From: Athripsodes cinereus
Taxonomy: Eukaryota > Arthropoda > Insecta > Trichoptera > Leptoceridae
Assembly: GCA_947579605.1 (NCBI GenBank)
Contig: OX388322.1
Coordinates: 4,402,001-4,466,000, forward strand
Direction: 5' to 3'
DNA: 64,000 bases
In this document: positions 1,255 through 57,207 of the stretch, piece by piece
Numbering within the stretch: position 1 is the first letter of the stretch
How the letters are laid out: the number at the start of each line of letters is the position of its first letter
Position numbers and translations under genes: made by a program
The notes under the pieces: generated by a model
What the model saw: only the letters and a program-made list of their open reading frames with translations
What the model was told of the DNA's origin: nothing
The model's database searches: none

Positions 1255-1975
1255 ATTTATTTCATCAATATACGGCGTGAGCCTTTTACATGTTAAACAA
1301 CAGCATAATAGTCAACAAATACAAACATACACGATAATCAGAAATCAAAAGTCAAATATAAAATAATTAAGTTATATAAAGAGTAATAAGTTATATAAAG
1401 CCAAAAAAGCAGTCAAAAATAAAATAATGCGAAACAGAAGTAAATATAGAGTACCTAATTAATTAATATCAAGTCAAAAAATAAGATAATATTAAACAGA
1501 AGTCGATGGGAAACAATAGGTCTACGGCAAATAAATTATTTATGTCAATGCAAACAAGCATGAATATGTCAAGGAGGAAAATAACAATTTCGAACAAACA
1601 AACAAAAAAAAACTTAATGCTTTTAGGAAAATTAGAATGTTAACAGATGAGAAAATAAAGTGCAATATAAATAGGTACGAATTAAATTATTACAAAATAG
1701 AATGGAATGAGAAATTCAATAGAAAGTCAATAACAAAGTCAATTCAAATTCAAGAGGAAAGTCAATAAAATTTAATAAAATAAAATTGTCAAAGTGTATA
1801 TACAATACATTGATTAATAAAATACATAATGTGTAAAAAACGCAATTTGAATTCAATTTATGCATGACAAATAAATATACAGAGAAGTAACGTCTTCCAA
1901 TATAATGAGGTATGGATCGCACATTGGATCGTTCTATCCAACGATCCAATGTGCTCAATGTCAGTTTACAATTGA
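1255..1975 (-). repeat. LINE 3'-UTR-like block, reverse orientation
   Basis: Opens with TTTATTTATTTATTTC and then ATACGGCGTGAGCCTTTTAC. That word occurs in the opposite orientation at 63,957-63,987, and a related one at 17,005-17,030 sits just before an (AAATA)n tail. This is the usual look of a non-LTR retrotransposon 3' end pointing left. The rest is A-rich degenerate sequence without coding capacity. Confidence 0.5.
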
Positions 1976-2557
1976 GAAAAATAATTGATTACGTCATAAT
2001 CGTATTACAAGATAATCGGTATGTTTATAAATCTATAAAAAAGGAGAAAAAAACACGAAATGAAATCATAAGATTATAAGATCTCTTTCATCGGAGTTTC
2101 GGGTAATCCATTCATTTCGCCAAACCTCATCGATTATGGATCCCTCCTCAGAGAGTCTCTTCCATAGTTGCCAAGATGTATGTCATGTTTTGATGAAAAT
2201 GAGATTAATCCTCAGAATATATAATATAGTATTTCAGACTTGCTTGACATCATTGTATAGAAAATATATGACACAATACAATACAACAAATAATACCTGT
2301 AGTGTGTCTACATATTTAAATAAAATAATAACATACCATTACCTACCTCAATGCTGTTACAATTACGTCAGATTACTCTTAGCGAAATGATTTAAGACTC
2401 ACTAGTGAATAAATTTGAAATAGAACGTGTTTTGGAAAGAAAGTGTGTAAATAGAATAAGTTGCAATGTTTTGGACATGTGAAGCTAATGAATTATTATT
2501 TTATTTTCACTTGGTTACATTATTTCAAATCAATAAAAAGTCTCATTAAAAATATCA
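1976..2557. other. No gene recognised
   Basis: A+T-rich. The 84-codon open frame at 2136-2390 has low-complexity composition and no motif. Confidence 0.4.
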
Positions 2558-2625
2558 GTGATTCAGTGTATAGAGGGCGAGTTTATCGCTAGAATGCGAT
2601 GTCTTCCAACTAATCCAGTAATAAA
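2558..2625 (-). repeat. LINE 3' tail fragment (TTGGAAGA type)
   Basis: Contains AGAGGGCGAGTTTATCGC and TGCGATGTCTTCCAACTAA, the reverse complement of the 3' end of the LINE at 12,493-15,239. The same tail also occurs near 46,255, 51,610, 55,165 and 58,325. Confidence 0.7.
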
Positions 2626-2683
2626 ACTATAATCAAAGAAACATACATAAATAATTTTCTAAAATTATTTATGAATTATATAT

Positions 2684-3150
2684 AATATACAAACAACCGT
2701 CGCAGAAAAAATACGTAAATATACAGAACTAGCAGGAGAAATAAAAAATATTTGGCATTCTAGGTCCGTTTATATAATACCTTTAGTCATGTCAGCTACA
2801 GGGGTAACTCCGAAATCTTTAATAAGTAATTTACAAAAATTAGATTTACCGGTTAATTTGTACATTAAAATTCGTAAAAAATCTATTATAATAAACACTT
2901 GTAATATTGTAAAAAAAATTTTGAACACAGATACTTATTTCAGGCACAATGCTGGTATTATGATCCCGCGTTTTGAGCCTAATCCTTTGATATCCTGTAT
3001 ATCTGGATAGGTGAATTTTTCCCGGCATTAGACTGTTAAGCTTTTGTGTGACCATGACTGATCATATGGAGACTTATCTGGTTATATAATGCTGAGAAGT
3101 GTGGATGACAATTCTGCCGCCGCGTAAAAAAAAAAATAAAAATAAAAAAA
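2684..3150 (+). pseudogene. Non-LTR retrotransposon C-terminal fragment, copy 1
   Basis: Open reading encodes a piece with KYTELAGEIKNIWHSRSVYI followed by PLVMSATGVTPKSL, closely matching the copy at 10,547-11,113. I associate this protein region with the C-terminal endonuclease-like end of R2/R4-type non-LTR elements, from memory. The copy is 5'-truncated near 2684 and ends at TCTGCCGCCGCGT plus an A-rich tail, as expected of target-primed reverse transcription. Compared with the second copy it has small differences near 2875 and 2935. Confidence 0.6.
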
Positions 3151-3309
3151 ATCAAAGAAACATGCATAAGAAATAAAAATAAAACATACACACACATTAA
3201 GAAAAAATAAAATAAAACATACACACACACATTAAGACCATAAACAATATATTGCATTAGTAATTATGAAAGGATGTTGAAGAGGGTGTATTTATCTGAA
3301 TGAGGGTGG

Positions 3310-3462
3310 GTGAGAAAGCGCGAACGTCCGAAAACCGCGTGGTTTGACTACATGTATCAATTAATTCTCATGAATGGTGGACTCATGTTGAGAAAAAGAA
3401 ATCGGCTAGCATGGATGAGAAATTGCATGACTAATGAAGAAGCATGTAAGGATAAATAATTA
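3310..3462 (+). pseudogene. LINE C-terminal relic (RNRxACMRN family)
   Basis: One frame reads LRKRNRLAWMRNCMTNEEAC, which aligns with MRNRSACMRNCIDVEEAKE on the minus strand at 26,640-26,830. Both are the far C-terminus of the same unidentified retroelement family. Stops interrupt it outside this block. Confidence 0.5.
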
Positions 3463-3526
3463 TGACGTTCCGTTCGCTCTACCGACCCCATTTGGATAAG
3501 TAGTGAGGTAACTAACTAAATAAACC

Positions 3527-3690
3527 ATCACGGCATATTCCACGATAGTGAGGTAGCCAGCAGACTTGCTGCAAGTAGTAAACATTAAAGCTGTCCTCTC
3601 CCTGGATCAACAAAAAATATGACATTCAGCACGGGTAGCAAACTTCATCTCTGAATTTAAGATGTGCAATATATTTATGTTGTCTAAGCT
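3527..3690 (-). repeat. R240 repeat, reverse, head lost
   Basis: Reads CCATCACGGCATATTCCAC, GGTAGCCAGCAGAC, GCTGTCCTCTCC and TCTGAATTTAAGATG, the reverse complement of the R240 body and tail. Confidence 0.7.
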
Positions 3691-3715
3691 TTCATGGCTT
3701 GGCCAAAAAGTGCAC

Positions 3716-3905
3716 TGTTCTTCCGTCCGCAAGAGTTCCGTCGACCCGGGCGTCCCTCTTTCACAATACACCGTCCCTATGACAACGACATCAGAGAGCA
3801 GGGAACGTCGTGGAAAGAGGTGACGCAATTGGCGCAGAGACGCTCTGAATGGAGGAGGCTGGTTTCTGCCCTGTGCTCCCGAGAGGAGCGTTGAGGGCGA
3901 TGAAT
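3716..3905 (+). pseudogene. RTE-type LINE 3' end, copy 1
   Basis: Encodes a short C-terminal piece ending SWKEVTQLAQRRSEWRRLVS and a stop just after CSREER, the usual end of insect RTE-like reverse transcriptase proteins. It closes with a (GAATGAAT)n-like simple tail at 3898-3916. A near-identical copy lies about 310 bp downstream. Confidence 0.6.
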
Positions 3906-3911
3906 GAATGA

Positions 3912-3995
3912 ATGAAAGCTTGCATGTTTAATATGAGCAGCTGGTTTGCTGGCTTACCCACTTGCAGGATATACCGTGATGGTATAGTAGTAGAA
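3912..3995 (+). repeat. R240 tail fragment
   Basis: Contains AGCTTGCATGTTTAATATGA, CTGGTTTGCTGGC and GTGATGGTATAGTAGTAG. It is the last third of the repeat including the (TAG)n end and lies between the two RTE 3' ends. Confidence 0.7.
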
Positions 3996-4027
3996 TTAGT
4001 TAATACCTTCATATTTTCAAACGTATC

Positions 4028-4235
4028 TTCCGTCCGCAGGGGTTCCGTAGGCCCGGGCGTCCCTCTTTCACAATACACCGTTCCTATGACAACGATATCA
4101 GAGAGCAAGGAATGTCGTGGGAAGAGGTGACGCAATTGGCACAGAGACGCTCTGAATGGAGGAGGCTGGTTTCTGCCCTGTGCTCTCGAGAGGAGCACTG
4201 ATGATGATGATGGAGATGATGATGATGATGATTTT
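4028..4235 (+). pseudogene. RTE-type LINE 3' end, copy 2
   Basis: Repeats the 3716-3905 segment almost word for word (GACGCAATTGGC, CTCTGAATGGAGGAGG) and ends in a different simple tail, (GAT)n at 4198-4232. The differing tails suggest two insertions rather than a simple tandem duplication. Confidence 0.6.
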
Positions 4236-4239
4236 CAAA

Positions 4240-4322
4240 CAACTATCTTTTACAGGACACTCGTAAACTTATGGAAAAGAGTGGTATATTAATTATTTGC
4301 TGGGTGCTCCACGGGTATAGAT
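4240..4322 (-). repeat. R240 head fragment, reverse
   Basis: Reads TTTTACAGGACACTCGTAAAC and GGGTGCTCCACGGG, the reverse complement of the R240 head. Confidence 0.6.
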
Positions 4323-4680
4323 AGATAGGTACTACATATATGTAATATTTCACTTTATTTCTTAGAAATATCTGTTAATAAATGTTTTATGTACATATGT
4401 ACACAAGTAATTTTCTCCATTACATGCCCTTGCCGAAAGAGGATGTTAGAAGAATGTATGTATACCTAATTATATATTTTACCGATACATATTTCTCTTG
4501 GTAAGTGGTAATAAATTCATGTAGGAGTTACCGTAAAATCGTCAATCGATTGTCCAGTTCTATAACTCAACAAGTAAAAATATCTTATTCTCGAGAAATC
4601 ACAATTCTTGTAATTTTGGTATATTTATAAGATCGACTCTAACAAATCTTCTTTTATACAACAATAACATATCATGCGCA

Positions 4681-5400
4681 ATGGCGAAGGGAAGTCAGGT
4701 TGATTCCATTTACACGGATTTCTCCAAGGCTTTCGATACAGTTAATCATGCAGTTCTGATAGGTAAACTTGAATGTATGGGCTTTGGAGAGATATTTGTG
4801 TGATGGATAGAGAGTTACTTATCGGAAAGAAAACTTGCAGTTAAGGTTGGAGGAACAGTATCACAGGAGTTTTTGGCGACTAGTGGAGTCCCGCAGGGCT
4901 CCCATCTGGGACCGATCCTTTTTGTTCTTTTCGTGAGTGACATAGTTGATAGGTTGCATGGAGTAGAGGCTTTACTGTATGCTGACGACCTTAAAATTTT
5001 TAGAGTAGTTCATAATATAGAAGATTGTGCTATATTGCAACACAATATTGATGTTCTATCAGGCTGGTGTGATGAAAACGGTCTATTACTAAATGGAAAA
5101 AAATGTAATGTTATGCGCTTTACTAGATCAAGGGAGAGATTGGTTTTTGATTACAAACTTGGAACGGTTGTTCTAAATGCTCTCTCAGAAATAAGGGACC
5201 TCGGTATCATTTTCGATGATAGGCTGAATTTCATAAAGCACATAAGGGATAATGCAAATACACTACTAGGTTTCATATTTAGAATGTCAAAAAATTTCAA
5301 AAGAATTGAAACATTAAAAATAGTATATTGTGCTTATGTTAGGAGCCAACTAGAGTATGCGACCACTGTCTGGTCCCAATCAATCGGAAAAGGGGAGCAA
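4681..5400 (+). pseudogene. Non-LTR retrotransposon reverse transcriptase fragment
   Basis: A reverse transcriptase core read from 4681 in one frame. It shows DFSKAFDTVNHAVL (palm motif A region), SGVPQGSHLGPILF (motif B) and LLYADDLKIF (catalytic YADD), then the thumb-like stretch ending YVRSQLEYATTVWSQS. An in-frame TGA at 4801-4803 precedes WIESYL, so the copy is dead. The endonuclease and early RT motifs are missing, so it is 5'-truncated. Near 5400 it runs into a palindromic element; sequence at 5700-5760 (CATCTGCACGTTGAACCC, GGTAAAACAATAAAAAAAT) looks like its 3' tail and matches 51,840-51,905. It belongs to the CR1/Jockey-like group; the exact clade is unsure. Confidence 0.8.
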
Positions 5401-5418
5401 AATCTAATTGGAAAAAGG

Positions 5419-5694
5419 GAGATAGGCGTCTCAACGCTTACGAATTGTCTCTAGGCTGCCTTTAGTGACCACTTCCGGTGTCCATGGACAACGTTCACCA
5501 ATTTCGTCATTCTCACTGTTACAATATAAGGTTCACCAATCTTGTTTCTAAGGTTGGCATCAACTTTTCTCGATTGGTGAACTTTATATCGTGATATTGA
5601 GAATGGCGAAATTGGTAAACGTTGTCCATGGACACCGAAAGTGATCACTTAAGCCAGCCTAGAGCCAATTCGTAAGCGTTGGGACGCCTATCTC
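5419..5694. mobile_element. 276-bp palindromic (foldback) MITE
   Basis: The left arm starts GAGATAGGCGTCTCAACGCT and the right arm ends GCGTTGGGACGCCTATCTC. The two halves are reverse complements across nearly the whole length with a centre near 5556 (for example GGTGTCCATGGACAACGTT against AACGTTGTCCATGGACACC). No coding capacity. A related right-half copy lies at 61,248-61,305. The element sits inside the 3' part of the LINE fragment. Confidence 0.75.
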
Positions 5695-12206: not shown

Positions 12207-12492
12207 TAATCTACCTTTTTAATTGAGTGAACTGGTTACGACTTACTAAGTCATTGTCAAACTGTATTAATAACATGCCATGTTGCTGTTGCTTATATAC
12301 TACATCTTAATCTAAGCAATAATATGGAATGTAGTAAAATCAGTATAAAAATGAGTTTGCAAGTCGAAACCGGATCATTAAATTATTTAAAGTATCTAGT
12401 AATACTCAAACCATTTATATGTTTTTCAATCCATTCTTTTTACTTATTTATTTATTATTACCTATATTTATGAACCTTCATTCATTACTGTA

Positions 12493-15239
12493 TGCGTATA
12501 TACGCGATCAACGAGACTTTTACAAATAACTTCTTCTGCTTGTCTAAACATCCTTCCTCTGCAACCCACACACGTTCTTCAAAATTCACAATCTCTCATT
12601 GATAATATTATAGTTTCTCAAACGAGCATGGTGAGGTCACATGGTCAATTGTCTGCTTCTGGTTTCTCGCATCATGACCTACTCTTCTTGGTATATTCGC
12701 TCAGAGTACCGAAGCCAAAACCTAAAATATCTATGGTTCGCAACTTTCGTCGTGTTGATACTGCTGCTCTTGTCTCCGATGCCGAGTCTCTTGACTGGGA
12801 TGGCATTATGCTTGCCGAGTCCATTGATGAAAAGGTAGAGATTCTAAATTGTAACATATGTCATCTTCTTGAGAGACATGCTCCGCTTAGAAAAGTTAAA
12901 ATAAAGAATCCAAACAACCAATGGATGACCGACGACATCCGTAAGCTGATGAGGCAAAGAGATAGGGCGCGTATCAAGCACAAACTATCTCCAACTGCAG
13001 TAAATTGGGTAAATTTCATAAGTCTTCGTAGGTTGTGTGCCAAGAGATGTCGAAACGCTAAAATATCTTATACTCAGGACTTATTCAAAAATTGCTCCCA
13101 AACACAAGCATGGAAACGACTTGACTCGCTGGTGCTCCCTAAACATGGGATGACGTGTGGTGACCCTACTTTAGATCCGAACGTACTCAATGCACATTTT
13201 GCCTCACCTCCCACCATTCTAGATGATGCTACCAAGTTAAACACCTTACAAGGATTAAACACTCACTCACGTATATCTGGACCTAGTTTTGATTTCCCTG
13301 TCGTGTCAGATTTAGAGGTTAAACGCTGCATTACCTCTATCAAATCCAAAGCTTCGGGAAGTGATGATACAAGTATAACATTTGTGTCACACTTTCTACA
13401 TACTATTCTTCCTTATCTCACTCACATCATTAATTGCTCATTCGAAAGTGGCTCATTTCCAGGAAAATGGAAGAGAGCTTTTATCATTCCACTCCCAAAA
13501 AAAAGCACTGTCGCGGGTCCCCAGGACTTTCGCCCCATTTCCATACTTCCTTTTTTTTCTAAGGTAATAGAAAAACTTGCGTATTTACACTTCAACCAAT
13601 ATCTCACAGAAAATGGTTTTCATAATAATTTCCAATCGGGATTCCGTGAAGGGCACAGCACAGTAACTGCTCTGGTTAAGATCACAGATGACGTTAGAGT
13701 TGCTATGGACAGAGGGTTGCTGACACATTTAACGTTGTTGGATTTTAGTAGTGCATTCAACTCTGTAGATTTTGATCTACTCTTGGCTACACTCAATCAA
13801 CTCAATATATCTCCATCTTGTGCTGCATGGTTTGAGTCGTATCTCAGGGGTCGTGCACAGTGCGTTCGATTGCAGAGTGGTGTTAGTTCTGAGTGGGTGG
13901 AATTAAGGGCAGGGGTACCGCAAGGCGGAATCCTCTCTCCCCTTCTATTCTCAATTTTTATTAATCCAATTGCGCGACATATTTCATGTCAATATCATCT
14001 ATACGCGGATGATTTGCAGGTTTATACTCACTTTAAGTTAGATGACCTTGCAACTGCAATTGACTGTAAATCACAATGCCTAAAGCAAATTTCTGATTGG
14101 GCTTCCAGCAATGGACTCATTCTTAACCCATCCAAATCACAGTCAATATTTATAGGGAGCCACCATTTAATTGGTAGACTAAACAATATAAGGATACCTC
14201 CCACGCAAATGAATCACGATACAGTTCCATATTCAAAAACGGTTAGGAATCTTGGTCTGATTATTGACCAGAGACTGTCTTGGCAACAACATATAAATTC
14301 TATTCGAAAAAAATTCTTTTATTCGTTACATAATCTCAAAAGACTGCAAAGATTCTTGCCAGTGAAGACTAAGATCCTACTCGTTCAATCCTTATTAATA
14401 CCGATCCTTGACTATGCAGACATTGCTTATATTGATCTTAATGAGGTTCTCTTGACTAAAGTTGAGAGACTTCAAAACGCAGGCATCCGTTATATTTTTA
14501 ACCTCAAAAAAACTGATCACATAACCTCGTACAGAAACCAGCTGAAGTGGACCACCATACGTCAAAGACGTGATCTACACATTTTATGTCTAGTTTTTAA
14601 AGCTTTATTTTTAGCGTCCTCCCCTTACTATCTTAAAGTCAAATTCGAGTATCTAGCGAGTCATGGTTTACCCTTGCGATCTAACAGAGAGCGTCTTCTA
14701 GCTATACCAGCACACAGTACAAGCTTTTTATCTAACTCATTCCTTGTTCATGGTGCTCGCAGTTGGAACAATCTTCCTTCGAAAATCAGGATGATAACAA
14801 CCTTTAATTCTTTCAGACAAGCTGTCAAAAATCATTTTCTCTCATTGAATTTAGCATCTGACTCCTAAATCCTTTTTCCTTTCCCTATGCATGTGCACGC
14901 TGCAATTTAATATGTTATACTTTTATTATTATGTGTCCGTAAGTGCATTGTTGCTTGCGTGTGTTCTTTTTCTTTTCTTTTGTTTACTTTGTGTTGTATT
15001 TTTATTTCTTTTATGACTGTTGATATGTAAGGGTGTATATATGTATGCATGTGTTTTTTTTTTTTTTTTAATTTTGTTTAGTTTTAGTTACCGGGTTAGT
15101 TGGAAGACATCGCATTTTAGCGATAAACTCGCCCTCTGTACATTGAATTTATAATTGTTATTTTTATGCCACTATTTCACTATGTAATATTGTAACCAAT
15201 GTACAGTAAAGAATAAAATAAATAAATAAATAATAAATA
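12493..15239 (+). mobile_element. 5'-truncated CR1/Jockey-group LINE with 3' UTR
   Basis: Spans the end of an endonuclease domain, a full reverse transcriptase, a 3' UTR and an (AAATA)n tail (15,213-15,236). TACTGTA at 12,486-12,492 and again at 15,238-15,244 could be the target-site duplication. The 3' end word GTTAGTTGGAAGACATCGCA defines a tail also found alone at five other places in the window. Confidence 0.8.
12505..14868 (+). CDS. LINE ORF2 polyprotein, 5'-truncated (endonuclease end + reverse transcriptase)
   Basis: Open from about 12,505 to the TAA at 14,868, with the first ATG at 12,628. Sequence before that ATG still reads as the end of an apurinic-type endonuclease (NILPLQPTHVLQNSQSLIDN) and continues as HGQLSASGFSHHDLL, the remnant of its SDHxL-type box. 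So the natural start is missing, and the ATG is only a convenient mark. The reverse transcriptase follows: FRPISILPFFSKVIEKL, SGFREGHSTVTAL, LLDFSSAFNSVDFDLL, AGVPQGGILSPLLFSIF and the catalytic LYADDLQVY, with a thumb and a C-terminal GARSWNNLPSKIR motif typical of CR1/Jockey elements. No stop breaks the RT region, so this copy is fairly young. It would reverse-transcribe its own RNA at a nicked target, but without the full endonuclease and 5' end it cannot be autonomous. Confidence 0.85.
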   Translation, partial: RSTRLLQITSSACLNILPLQPTHVLQNSQSLIDNIIVSQTSMVRSHGQLSASGFSHHDLLFLVYSLRVPKPKPKISMVRNFRRVDTAALVSDAESLDWDGIMLAESIDEKVEILNCNICHLLERHAPLRKVKIKNPNNQWMTDDIRKLMRQRDRARIKHKLSPTAVNWVNFISLRRLCAKRCRNAKISYTQDLFKNCSQTQAWKRLDSLVLPKHGMTCGDPTLDPNVLNAHFASPPTILDDATKLNTLQGLNTHSRISGPSFDFPVVSDLEVKRCITSIKSKASGSDDTSITFVSHFLHTILPYLTHIINCSFESGSFPGKWKRAFIIPLPKKSTVAGPQDFRPISILPFFSKVIEKLAYLHFNQYLTENGFHNNFQSGFREGHSTVTALVKITDDVRVAMDRGLLTHLTLLDFSSAFNSVDFDLLLATLNQLNISPSCAAWFESYLRGRAQCVRLQSGVSSEWVELRAGVPQGGILSPLLFSIFINPIARHISCQYHLYADDLQVYTHFKLDDLATAIDCKSQCLKQISDWASSNGLILNPSKSQSIFIGSHHLIGRLNNIRIPPTQMNHDTVPYSKTVRNLGLIIDQRLSWQQHINSIRKKFFYSLHNLKRLQRFLPVKTKILLVQSLLIPILDYADIAYIDLNEVLLTKVERLQNAGIRYIFNLKKTDHITSYRNQLKWTTIRQRRDLHILCLVFKALFLASSPYYLKVKFEYLASHGLPLRSNRERLLAIPAHSTSFLSNSFLVHGARSWNNLPSKIRMITTFNSFRQAVKNHFLSLNLASDS

Positions 15240-30531: not shown

Positions 30532-44653
<14,122 letters not shown>

Positions 44654-54843: not shown

Positions 54844-55054
54844 CGACGCACAGACAGGTATTTCTACCTAAAACGTGGCCAAAAATATTTTGTCACTTTT
54901 TTTTATGTCAACAGGGTATCAAATGACTAAAAACGTGTTTTGAATGATGTAGCATTGCAAAATAGGTACCTACCACGTACGTACCTACTTAATTTTACGA
55001 AAAATAAAAAAAGCAAATCTTTGGCAAATATTTATATTTTTGATATATTATTGT

Positions 55055-55300
55055 TAGATACAGAGGGAGCCTTTTACATGTAGAGTATATAAGAAATACA
55101 TGACAGACATAAGCAAAACACGAAAAAAACAACAATACATAATTAAAAAACAATATGATACATATAATGGATTAGTTGGAAGATGTCGCATCCCTTCGAT
55201 AAACTCGCCCATTGTACAAAATTTTCGTTTATACGTACCTTATTGTAATCCTATTATTTTTATACAAATTTTGTACAATAAAGTTTATTATTATTATATA
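55055..55300 (+). repeat. LINE 3' tail nested in the RAG1-like transposon
   Basis: TTAGTTGGAAGATGTCGCAT and GATAAACTCGCCCATTGTAC match the tail at 15,097; preceded by GGGAGCCTTTTACATGTAG, followed by AATAAAGTTTATTATTATT. Confidence 0.65.
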
Positions 55301-55439
55301 ATATAAATAAAGTGTAAGACTATACCATAAGCTTCCAGATACAATAAAGTGCGATGATGTATTGATTTTTCGGAGACGAATGAAATCGTATCTGGTTGAT
55401 AAATCGTTTTACTCAATTAATTTGATTGATTTCTTCATT

Positions 55440-56935
55440 GGTTATATCTCTGTCTTCCCTAACATAACGAATCCGTATTGGTCTGCAATATCTTGGTGAT
55501 GATGGTTGCATATTTTGCTATATAATTTTATCTGCACACATCAAACGAAGGGGCACAAGAGAACTCATATATATGTTAGCATCACTATTCGCGTCTTCTT
55601 CGAATTTTTGTTTGTATTGCATTTGAGTTGATCCATCACGACCCCACTTACATATAAGAGTTAAAACTGTGTCTGTAGTCTGAAAGCACTGTTGGAGAAC
55701 TGGTTCCAACTATTTACACAGTCGCGATGATGTATGAGCTACTAAATCTTGAAGTTTCACTTCTGCAACTGTCTCACTGACGTTTTTTGGTGGGTTACAA
55801 TCATCTTTAGCCCTTTGTACATAGGTATAGCATGGATATACCTCTTTGTTGGCCTGATGAATGACCTCGTATTGATTAACAGTCATATTAGCTCCAACGT
55901 ATATGCTCAAAGCTTCCTCAGGAGTATGTTTCCTGGTAGTTGTGGTTTTACTACCAATCATAGCCGCTTCATGGAATTTTATAGCCCTCTTGGAGATTTG
56001 GTAACTTCTTGTATCACCTTAGCGACATCATTGTTACCCACTGACCTTTGACTCATTTGTGCAGCGTATGTTAGTTCTTCAACGGGCACATTTTTTAGAA
56101 AGATCCATTGTTTTGCGATGCTTTGTTCGATCACTGAATTCCCCGAATTCTTTACTTGGGCGGCCTTTCGAACTTCCGGAAATTGGTCTAGCAGGTAATG
56201 CAATTTCTTCACTAAGCCATTCGTTGCTATTTTCTCTAGGAAACGAACTTCTGTACTATTACACGCGAGCCATTTTCGTTTATACACAGCTTTGAATACC
56301 TTTATAATTTTTTGAAGGTCATTCATTTTTTCAAGAGGACATTTTGTTAAATCTACGATTTTTTCAGATAAATCTTCGAGTTTTCTGTCAAGCAATCGTT
56401 GGGAGCTTCCTCTAACCAACTCATGTAGCTGTTTTCTACTCATAGACACGACAGAATGAGCAATATCTGCAACAATGTTAAAATGTGTTATTTAGAATCC
56501 CACTTAAGGGTGTGTTCACAGGTATATTTTTCTGTGATGTGATTACTTGTGAATGTTTTTGATATCTACAGTTATAGAAGATATATTGAAGTAAAATGCC
56601 AAGTAAGTCTGATACTGTTGCGGGCAGTTGCATATATTCAAAAATACTAATGTTTGTTCAAAAAGACGAAAAAGATAAAAATATTTTAAGTAAATAGTTA
56701 CATTACTCGGTATGATTAAATAAAGATTGAAACACAAGCAAATTAACACTCAAAATACTGTACATACCTTGAATGATGGTATCCATATTCATTTTTGTCA
56801 CAGTATTCACTTTTAACATATGAAAACAGGCAGCGAAAGTACAGTTTTTTGTGAAATGTCGCGAACAAAAACAAACGTCTTCAGTAAGTGCTAGGTTCCG
56901 ACCGGCGATGCCACGGACTGGGGCGACCAATTTGG
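55440..56935 (-). pseudogene. RAG1/Transib-superfamily transposase, N-terminal half, decayed
   Basis: Exon 1 (to 56,768) ends NTVTKMNMDTIIQ. An intron of about 300 bp (donor GTATGT, acceptor GTTGCAG) joins in phase to DIAHSVVSMSRKQLHELVRG and a 150-residue helical region. A frameshift near 55,975 leads to RAIKFHEAAMIGSKTTTTRK, then TPEEALSIYVGANMTVNQYE. A TAG at 55,710 interrupts before LEPVLQQCFQTTDTV and CKWGRDGSTQMQYKQKF, whose Asp (55,635-55,637) I align with the first catalytic Asp of RAG1. SSLVPLRL follows, then a TAG at 55,518 in place of an expected Trp, then QPSSPRYCRPIRIRYV. That C-P block parallels the EPKPNSELCCKPL segment of RAG1. The remaining catalytic residues are absent. The family call is from remembered motifs. 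Confidence 0.62.
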
Positions 56936-57083
56936 GTAACGAGATCGTTAAAGGGTGGCCACGTTATCTATCTGCTTTGGGACACAGTGTTGTCGCTAGG
57001 AGTGAAAATTGAAAATTTTGATTTATGGCCACACTTTAGGTAGAAATACTTGTCTGTGCGACGGTTCTTGGTGGAAGTTCATA

Positions 57084-57207
57084 TTAATAATTTTTAAAAT
57101 GAAACGCGATATATAGGTAGTTATTCCACTATTGACTTTATTTATTTTTGGAAGCCGGCTCGCAAAAATAAATAAAGTCTATAGTGTTTCATTTTAAAAA
57201 TTATTAA
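57084..57207. mobile_element. 124-bp palindromic MITE
   Basis: TTAATAATTTTTAAAATGAAAC pairs with GTTTCATTTTAAAAATTATTAA; inner CTATTGACTTTATTTATTTT pairs with AAAATAAATAAAGTCTATAG around GAAGCCGGCTCGC. It lies just outside the RAG1-like element. Confidence 0.7.

Follow-up and report, generated by a model that had tools for sequence, protein, structure and literature searches.

A CACAG-ended, non-autonomous Transib family in the genome of Athripsodes cinereus, most likely mobilised in trans

Introduction

A transposon-like element with CACAG ends lies in the 64,000-nucleotide stretch of Athripsodes cinereus DNA that was analysed (hereafter, the window), and it raises the question of whether this genome holds a RAG1-like family apart from Transib. 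The first-pass annotation had argued for such a family, citing inverted ends that begin with CACAG, exact CGACG flanks, minus-strand pieces of a RAG1/Transib-type catalytic core and a recent gene structure with an intact intron, and had suggested a bearing on the origin of V(D)J recombination. Transib is a group of insect transposons with kinship to RAG1, the recombinase of antibody genes; classic Transib ends read CACAATG. Here, we consider the ends of the element, its copies and relatives, and the state of its gene.

Element Boundaries and Target Site

The element spans 2,210 bp between two exact copies of CGACG (Table 1). Its terminal inverted repeats (TIRs) are identical at 34 of 38 positions and both begin CACAGACA; the end pattern CACAGACARGTATTTCTACCTAAA, with up to three mismatches, occurs twice in the window against a mean of 0.00 in 100 shuffles, so that the CACAG-starting inverted ends and exact flanks described at the outset hold. 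As chance background, identical 5-mers at the spacing of the element occur at 111 of 61,780 window positions, and CGNCG occurs at 63 of 63,996. Since CGACG is almost palindromic, the inverted repeat appears to extend to 45 nt (89% identity); where a copy has a different duplication, the element is seen to begin at CACAG.

Table 1. Features of the element, in window coordinates.
Feature	Position	Strand	Basis or remark
Element	54849–57058		between two exact CGACG copies
Target-site duplication, left copy, CGACG	54844–54848		flank sequence
Left TIR, far from gene start, CACAGACAGG...	54849–54886	+	same end in other copies
A+T-rich segment, left end to stop of transposase reading	54887–55412		five ORFs, one extending past 55412
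Nested dispersed repeat, about 133 bp	55165–55297		genome matches
Degraded exon 2, transposase N-terminal half (P0007 residues 1–339)	55413–56466	−	alignment with relatives
Terminating TGA	55413–55415	−
Internal stops in exon 2	55710–55712; 55518–55520	−
First catalytic Asp codon, in KWGRDG	55635–55637	−	aligned with HzTransib motif
Frameshifts in exon 2	near 56231–56234, 56091 and 55991–55994	−
Transposase pieces	56018–55710; 55709–55518	−
Predicted intron (GT 56767, AG 56467; exon 1 would end at 56768)	56467–56767	−	prediction from sequence
5' region or possible exon 1	56768–57020	−	candidate starts 56792, 56819, or Met 56443 in exon 2
Right TIR, near gene start, CACAGACAAG...	57021–57058	−	same end in other copies
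Target-site duplication, right copy, CGACG	57059–57063		flank sequence

An RSS-like organisation of the ends was rejected, as both ends have the same layout rather than a 12/23 asymmetric one. A nonamer-like match is present at both ends at 23-bp spacing, but is weak (6/9), this score being reached in 260 of 20,000 shuffles when six spacings were allowed. In the available part of PMC8289069, CACAG denotes the RSS heptamer. Directly to the right of the element, two nested inverted repeats (57084–57207) form a foldback or MITE-like hairpin.

Copies in the Same Genome

The search of the source genome (716 Mb in 160 contigs, with the window on contig 18) located the family of the element at no fewer than 13 further places, which is a lower bound based on the 40 of 1,420 candidates that were scored; thus, copies or a partner could have been missed, or could sit in an assembly gap. 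Including the window, 11 copies have both ends; L015 and L021 retain one end, and L020 neither. Exact 5-bp duplications flank 10 of the 11 two-ended copies, the remaining one (L010) matching at 4/5 positions (CGTCG/CGTCA). Seven of the 11 have exact CGNCG on both sides, either CGACG (the window, L009 and L011) or CGTCG (L012, L014, L016 and L018), and three have duplications of another type: CAATG (L013), CAACG (L017) and AACCG (L019). CGNCG is named as a Transib target in the available part of PMC4735498, and the copies with independent duplications agree with a target of this type. The view that the G+C-rich 5-bp duplication is of the type made by the superfamily is therefore upheld.

The ends are equally consistent across copies: a CAC start is found at 21 of the 22 ends of the two-ended copies, the exception being one L019 end that starts CAA. 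Genome-wide, the end pattern (up to three mismatches) occurs at 25 places, compared with two for the reversed control; 24 of the 25 coincide with ends of the copies described above, and the remaining one, which has three mismatches, is located elsewhere. The other copies thus have the same ends and 5-bp duplications as the window copy. The full catalytic triad was found in none of the CACAG-ended copies identified, and by tblastn the Glu was not kept in any of them. The second-Asp region is kept in L019, the most diverged two-ended copy.

Family Assignment

Homology confirms the minus-strand coding, the first-Asp region and the Pro/Cys block. The Pro/Cys block (P0002) matches the HzTransib chain of PDB entry 6pqn (E = 4.3e-5), and the first-Asp block (P0003) matches the HzTransib chain with E = 1.2e-6, making HzTransib, rather than a member of another transposase family, the best solved-structure match of the pieces. 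P0002 also drew four immunoglobulin-binding protein A sequences (E = 0.0024–1.6), but no individual stretch passed. For the longest piece, P0001, the PDB search gave no Transib chain, and no RAG1 or RAG1L chain was listed among the PDB matches of the three pieces up to E = 10.

A search of 5.8 billion protein sequences returned 79 relatives at E ≤ 0.01, the full-length ones being about 620–725 aa long. One of these, P0007, reaches 372 bits with HzTransib but 18 bits with amphioxus RAG1L; for a profile built from 19 relatives, the scores are 582 bits with HzTransib, 58 bits with amphioxus RAG1L and no more than 39 bits with vertebrate RAG1. In a tree of 54 rows, the window sequence falls inside a 16-row clade (SH-aLRT 100), near P0005, P0014 and the beetle sequence P0006; this tree was made by a quick method with no bootstraps, the forks just around the window have values of 84–91, and the HzTransib root is a long branch. 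The superfamily call and the CAC ends noted initially are thus borne out by homology and by the ends themselves, but the proposal of a RAG1-like family apart from Transib is contradicted by the profile scores. From its sequence, the element is assigned to Transib and not to RAGL.

RAGL/ProtoRAG transposons resemble the element in having a CAC start, a 5-bp duplication and a distantly homologous core, and in the available part of PMC7204232 the CAC ends, 5-bp duplication and RAG1-related core are common to Transib, RAGL and RAG. The Pfam RAG1 core model was matched by four of the eight relatives scanned, one of them (P0072) above the cut-off (30.4 versus 25 bits), which might seem to favour a RAGL transposon, or a further lineage that is intermediate between Transib and RAG1 and relevant to V(D)J origins. 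We regard this reading as extremely improbable. The match of P0072 is what is expected of distant homology and a known distant kinship, and the window's relatives score far lower against the RAG proteins than against HzTransib. The N-terminal RAG1 domain was not matched in the eight relatives scanned, and none of the four transposase pieces of the window has a Pfam match at the cut-off. RAGL/ProtoRAG elements differ further in their convergent RAG1L and RAG2L genes, as described in the available part of PMC7204232, and the ends of the element do not fit the protostome RAGL consensus as given there. The RAG2-like partner gene that had been envisaged was not found among the five ORFs of the element outside the transposase, which have no Pfam match at the curated cut-off (one chance-level match, E = 0.071).

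Closest Relatives

HzTransib of Helicoverpa zea (PDB 6pqn and five further entries) shares with the window copy a homologous core with a KWGxDG first-Asp motif, as well as TIRs and a 5-bp duplication (PMC1852546, available part). The two differ in that HzTransib is active (PMC6941560, available part), whereas the window copy is truncated and broken; their identity is 37.5% over 152 aa. Three members of the 16-row clade are closer. P0006 (621 aa), from the beetle Brassicogethes aeneus, is 72% identical over 337 aa, with window breaks read across with X, and extends past the truncation point of the window copy. P0005 (387 aa; 71% over 354 aa) is unbroken and ends near the last residue of the window copy, and P0014 (402 aa; 73% over 222 aa) continues 178 residues beyond it.

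The best named relative is therefore the beetle P0006, and the best-scoring named lepidopteran sequence among the matches listed is P0025 (48%). A beetle as the nearest named relative could reflect horizontal transfer, or old lineages that have been unevenly sampled; with many Transib lineages per genome, beetle–moth transfer is no more than a possibility. Searches for relatives in viral_contigs gave no confirmed stretch among 6 and among 20, nor did the search of genome_contigs among 71; no exact element ends were present in viral_contigs, and Rfam and tRNA scans gave no matches.

Other Transib Families of the Same Genome

A search of the genome for other Transibs gave at least 75 matches (68 of 97 candidates scored). 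Ends were sought at 16 loci, 13 of which gave a pair (L053, L058 and L059 gave none); pairs were required to have a CAC start and flanks matching at 4/5 or 5/5 positions, so that their duplications, exact CGNCG in 8 of the 13 pairs, were selected and are not independent evidence of duplication length. A family with CACACTGTTTGAA ends (2.9 kb) accounts for 8 of the 16 loci, including L060 and L061. The L060 element (positions 1855–4780 of that locus; 2.9 kb) has CACACTGTTTGAA ends, a CGACG duplication, no stop over P0007 residues 1–626 and a complete triad; in L061 the Glu is replaced. L060 would have to gain its start through splicing, because its longest Met-begun frame is 415 aa and there is no Met start upstream of it, and a working product is putative.

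A second family, with CACACAAGCCC ends (1.9 kb), is present at 4 of the 16 loci. One further member is inserted in L013 (358–2231) with a CGCCG duplication, and was found without the end-pair filter. In the four elements of this family that were measured (L052, L054, L055 and L064), a Met frame of 258 aa is present in three, and one of 235 aa in L064. The 258-aa frame joins the N-terminal part and first-Asp motif to a C-terminus-like tail, with the middle of the core missing. KP of the P element is an example of a repressor of this kind, and by analogy the 258-aa product might act as a DNA-binding repressor. At a third type of locus, L057, the ends are CACATACGGGTATTT and CACTAACGGGTATTT.

These other families (CACACTGTTTGAA, CACACAAGCCC and CACATACGGGTATTT) share CAC ends, 5-bp duplications and transposase homology with the window family, but their ends diverge after CACA and protein identity in matched stretches is 28–51%. 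CACAC and CACAT ends occur beside CACAG in one genome; what follows CAC therefore differs from one Transib family to another, and a CACAG end does not indicate proximity to RAG. The contrast with classic Transib ends is thus ordinary variation and, with no RAG2-like gene found, the bearing on V(D)J origins falls away. The CACAG-ended family is a new non-autonomous Transib of a kind already known, and the RAG-origin lead settles as ordinary Transib biology.

Transposase Gene and Its Decay

The recent, intact gene structure proposed for the window copy gives way to a frame that is shifted at three points, interrupted by two internal stops and devoid of its C-terminal half. The first catalytic Asp, invariant in the 19 relatives, is the only triad residue left. 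The second Asp and the Glu belong to the missing part, and their equivalents in P0007 (D367 and E576), invariant in the same relatives, correspond to D225 and E436 of HzTransib (PMC6941560, available part). As the part with the second Asp and Glu is missing and the frame is broken, we classify the window copy, on the strength of its sequence, as a deletion derivative and not an autonomous Transib.

The predicted splice acceptor is present in all 12 aligned copies and the GT donor in 10 of them, L016 and L019 deviating. It is uncertain whether exon 1 is coding sequence, because relatives such as P0007 and P0009 begin at a Met inside exon 2 of the window copy; the true start may instead be that in exon 2. 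The THAP-like look of the exon 1 translation was rejected, since Pfam listed no family, and the stretch may be 5' untranslated. The repeat nested in the A+T-rich segment has 24 further places in the genome (87–93% identity) that match only about that part.

Spread After Gene Death

Alignment of 12 copies showed that most defects of the window copy are held in common. The first frameshift is common to 7 of the 11 copies with letters at that position (the window, L009–L012, L016 and L017), the first internal stop to 6 of 11, the second to 6 of 8 and the truncating TGA to 7 of 8; only the window copy has the frameshift near 56091. Seven copies with shared defects differ pairwise by 0.9–2.6%; of their variable sites, counted where at least five of the seven had letters, 124 are private and 11 shared, a pattern that fits a short burst from one source. 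Because these defects recur in copies at separate sites, most of which have an exact duplication of their own, the copies moved after the gene had died, and a functional transposase must have been supplied from another source. We infer that the copies were most likely mobilised in trans by a borrowed transposase. The element in the window is, in our assessment, almost certainly a non-autonomous copy of the Transib superfamily, in which the ancestor's gene was truncated and broken, the ends were kept, and movement in trans followed.

In the scenario we propose, an autonomous ancestor would have had a single gene for a DDE transposase of roughly 650 aa, which cut at CAC ends and integrated the element, with a 5-bp stagger, at CGNCG-like sites. 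A derivative would have lost the C-terminal half of this gene, with the second Asp and the Glu, and accumulated frameshifts and stops while its ends were kept; the transposase of another copy would then have carried it in trans to several places, among them that in the window. By analogy with HzTransib, the cut-and-paste chemistry would be of the nick-hairpin type; excision by this route, with the hairpin on the flank, is reported for HzTransib in the available part of PMC6941560.

The transposase probably came from an autonomous copy of the CACAG family, either lost in the meantime or not represented in the assembly. No match to the C-terminal part of P0007 occurs in the window or at any of the 13 further places, the second-Asp region of L019 implies that longer ancestors existed, and the close relative P0014 continues well past the end of the window copy; against this, no autonomous copy is present among the 25 end-pattern places. 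Cross-mobilisation by one of the other Transib families in this genome, for example that with CACACTGTTTGAA ends, is in our view unlikely. L060 would be the candidate donor, given its three catalytic residues, its stop-free reading and its CGACG duplication, but its transposase is about 35% identical to that of the window, its ends have hardly more than CACA in common with CACAGACA, and with a longest Met-begun frame of 415 aa its product is putative. That a CACAG family for which the assembly yielded no autonomous member was spread by so distant a Transib, acting on ends with little in common beyond CACA, is quite improbable; if true, Transib transposases would accept ends far looser than their own. 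The family thereby offers a test case for the action of Transib transposases in trans on foreign ends, alongside the more probable loss of an autonomous CACAG-ended parent.

Other Features of the Window

Elsewhere in the window, a 585-aa open frame (38764–40521) has DDE_1, Tc5-type HTH and CENP-B_N domains, as in a pogo/Tigger-like transposase, and is free of stops. LINE reverse transcriptase frames are located at 12403–14868 (821 aa, stop to stop) and 4804–5454. Among the 120 relatives listed of 554 for the first of these frames, the insects named are all lepidopteran (best match 58% identical), and one archaeal assembly, probably contamination, is also listed.
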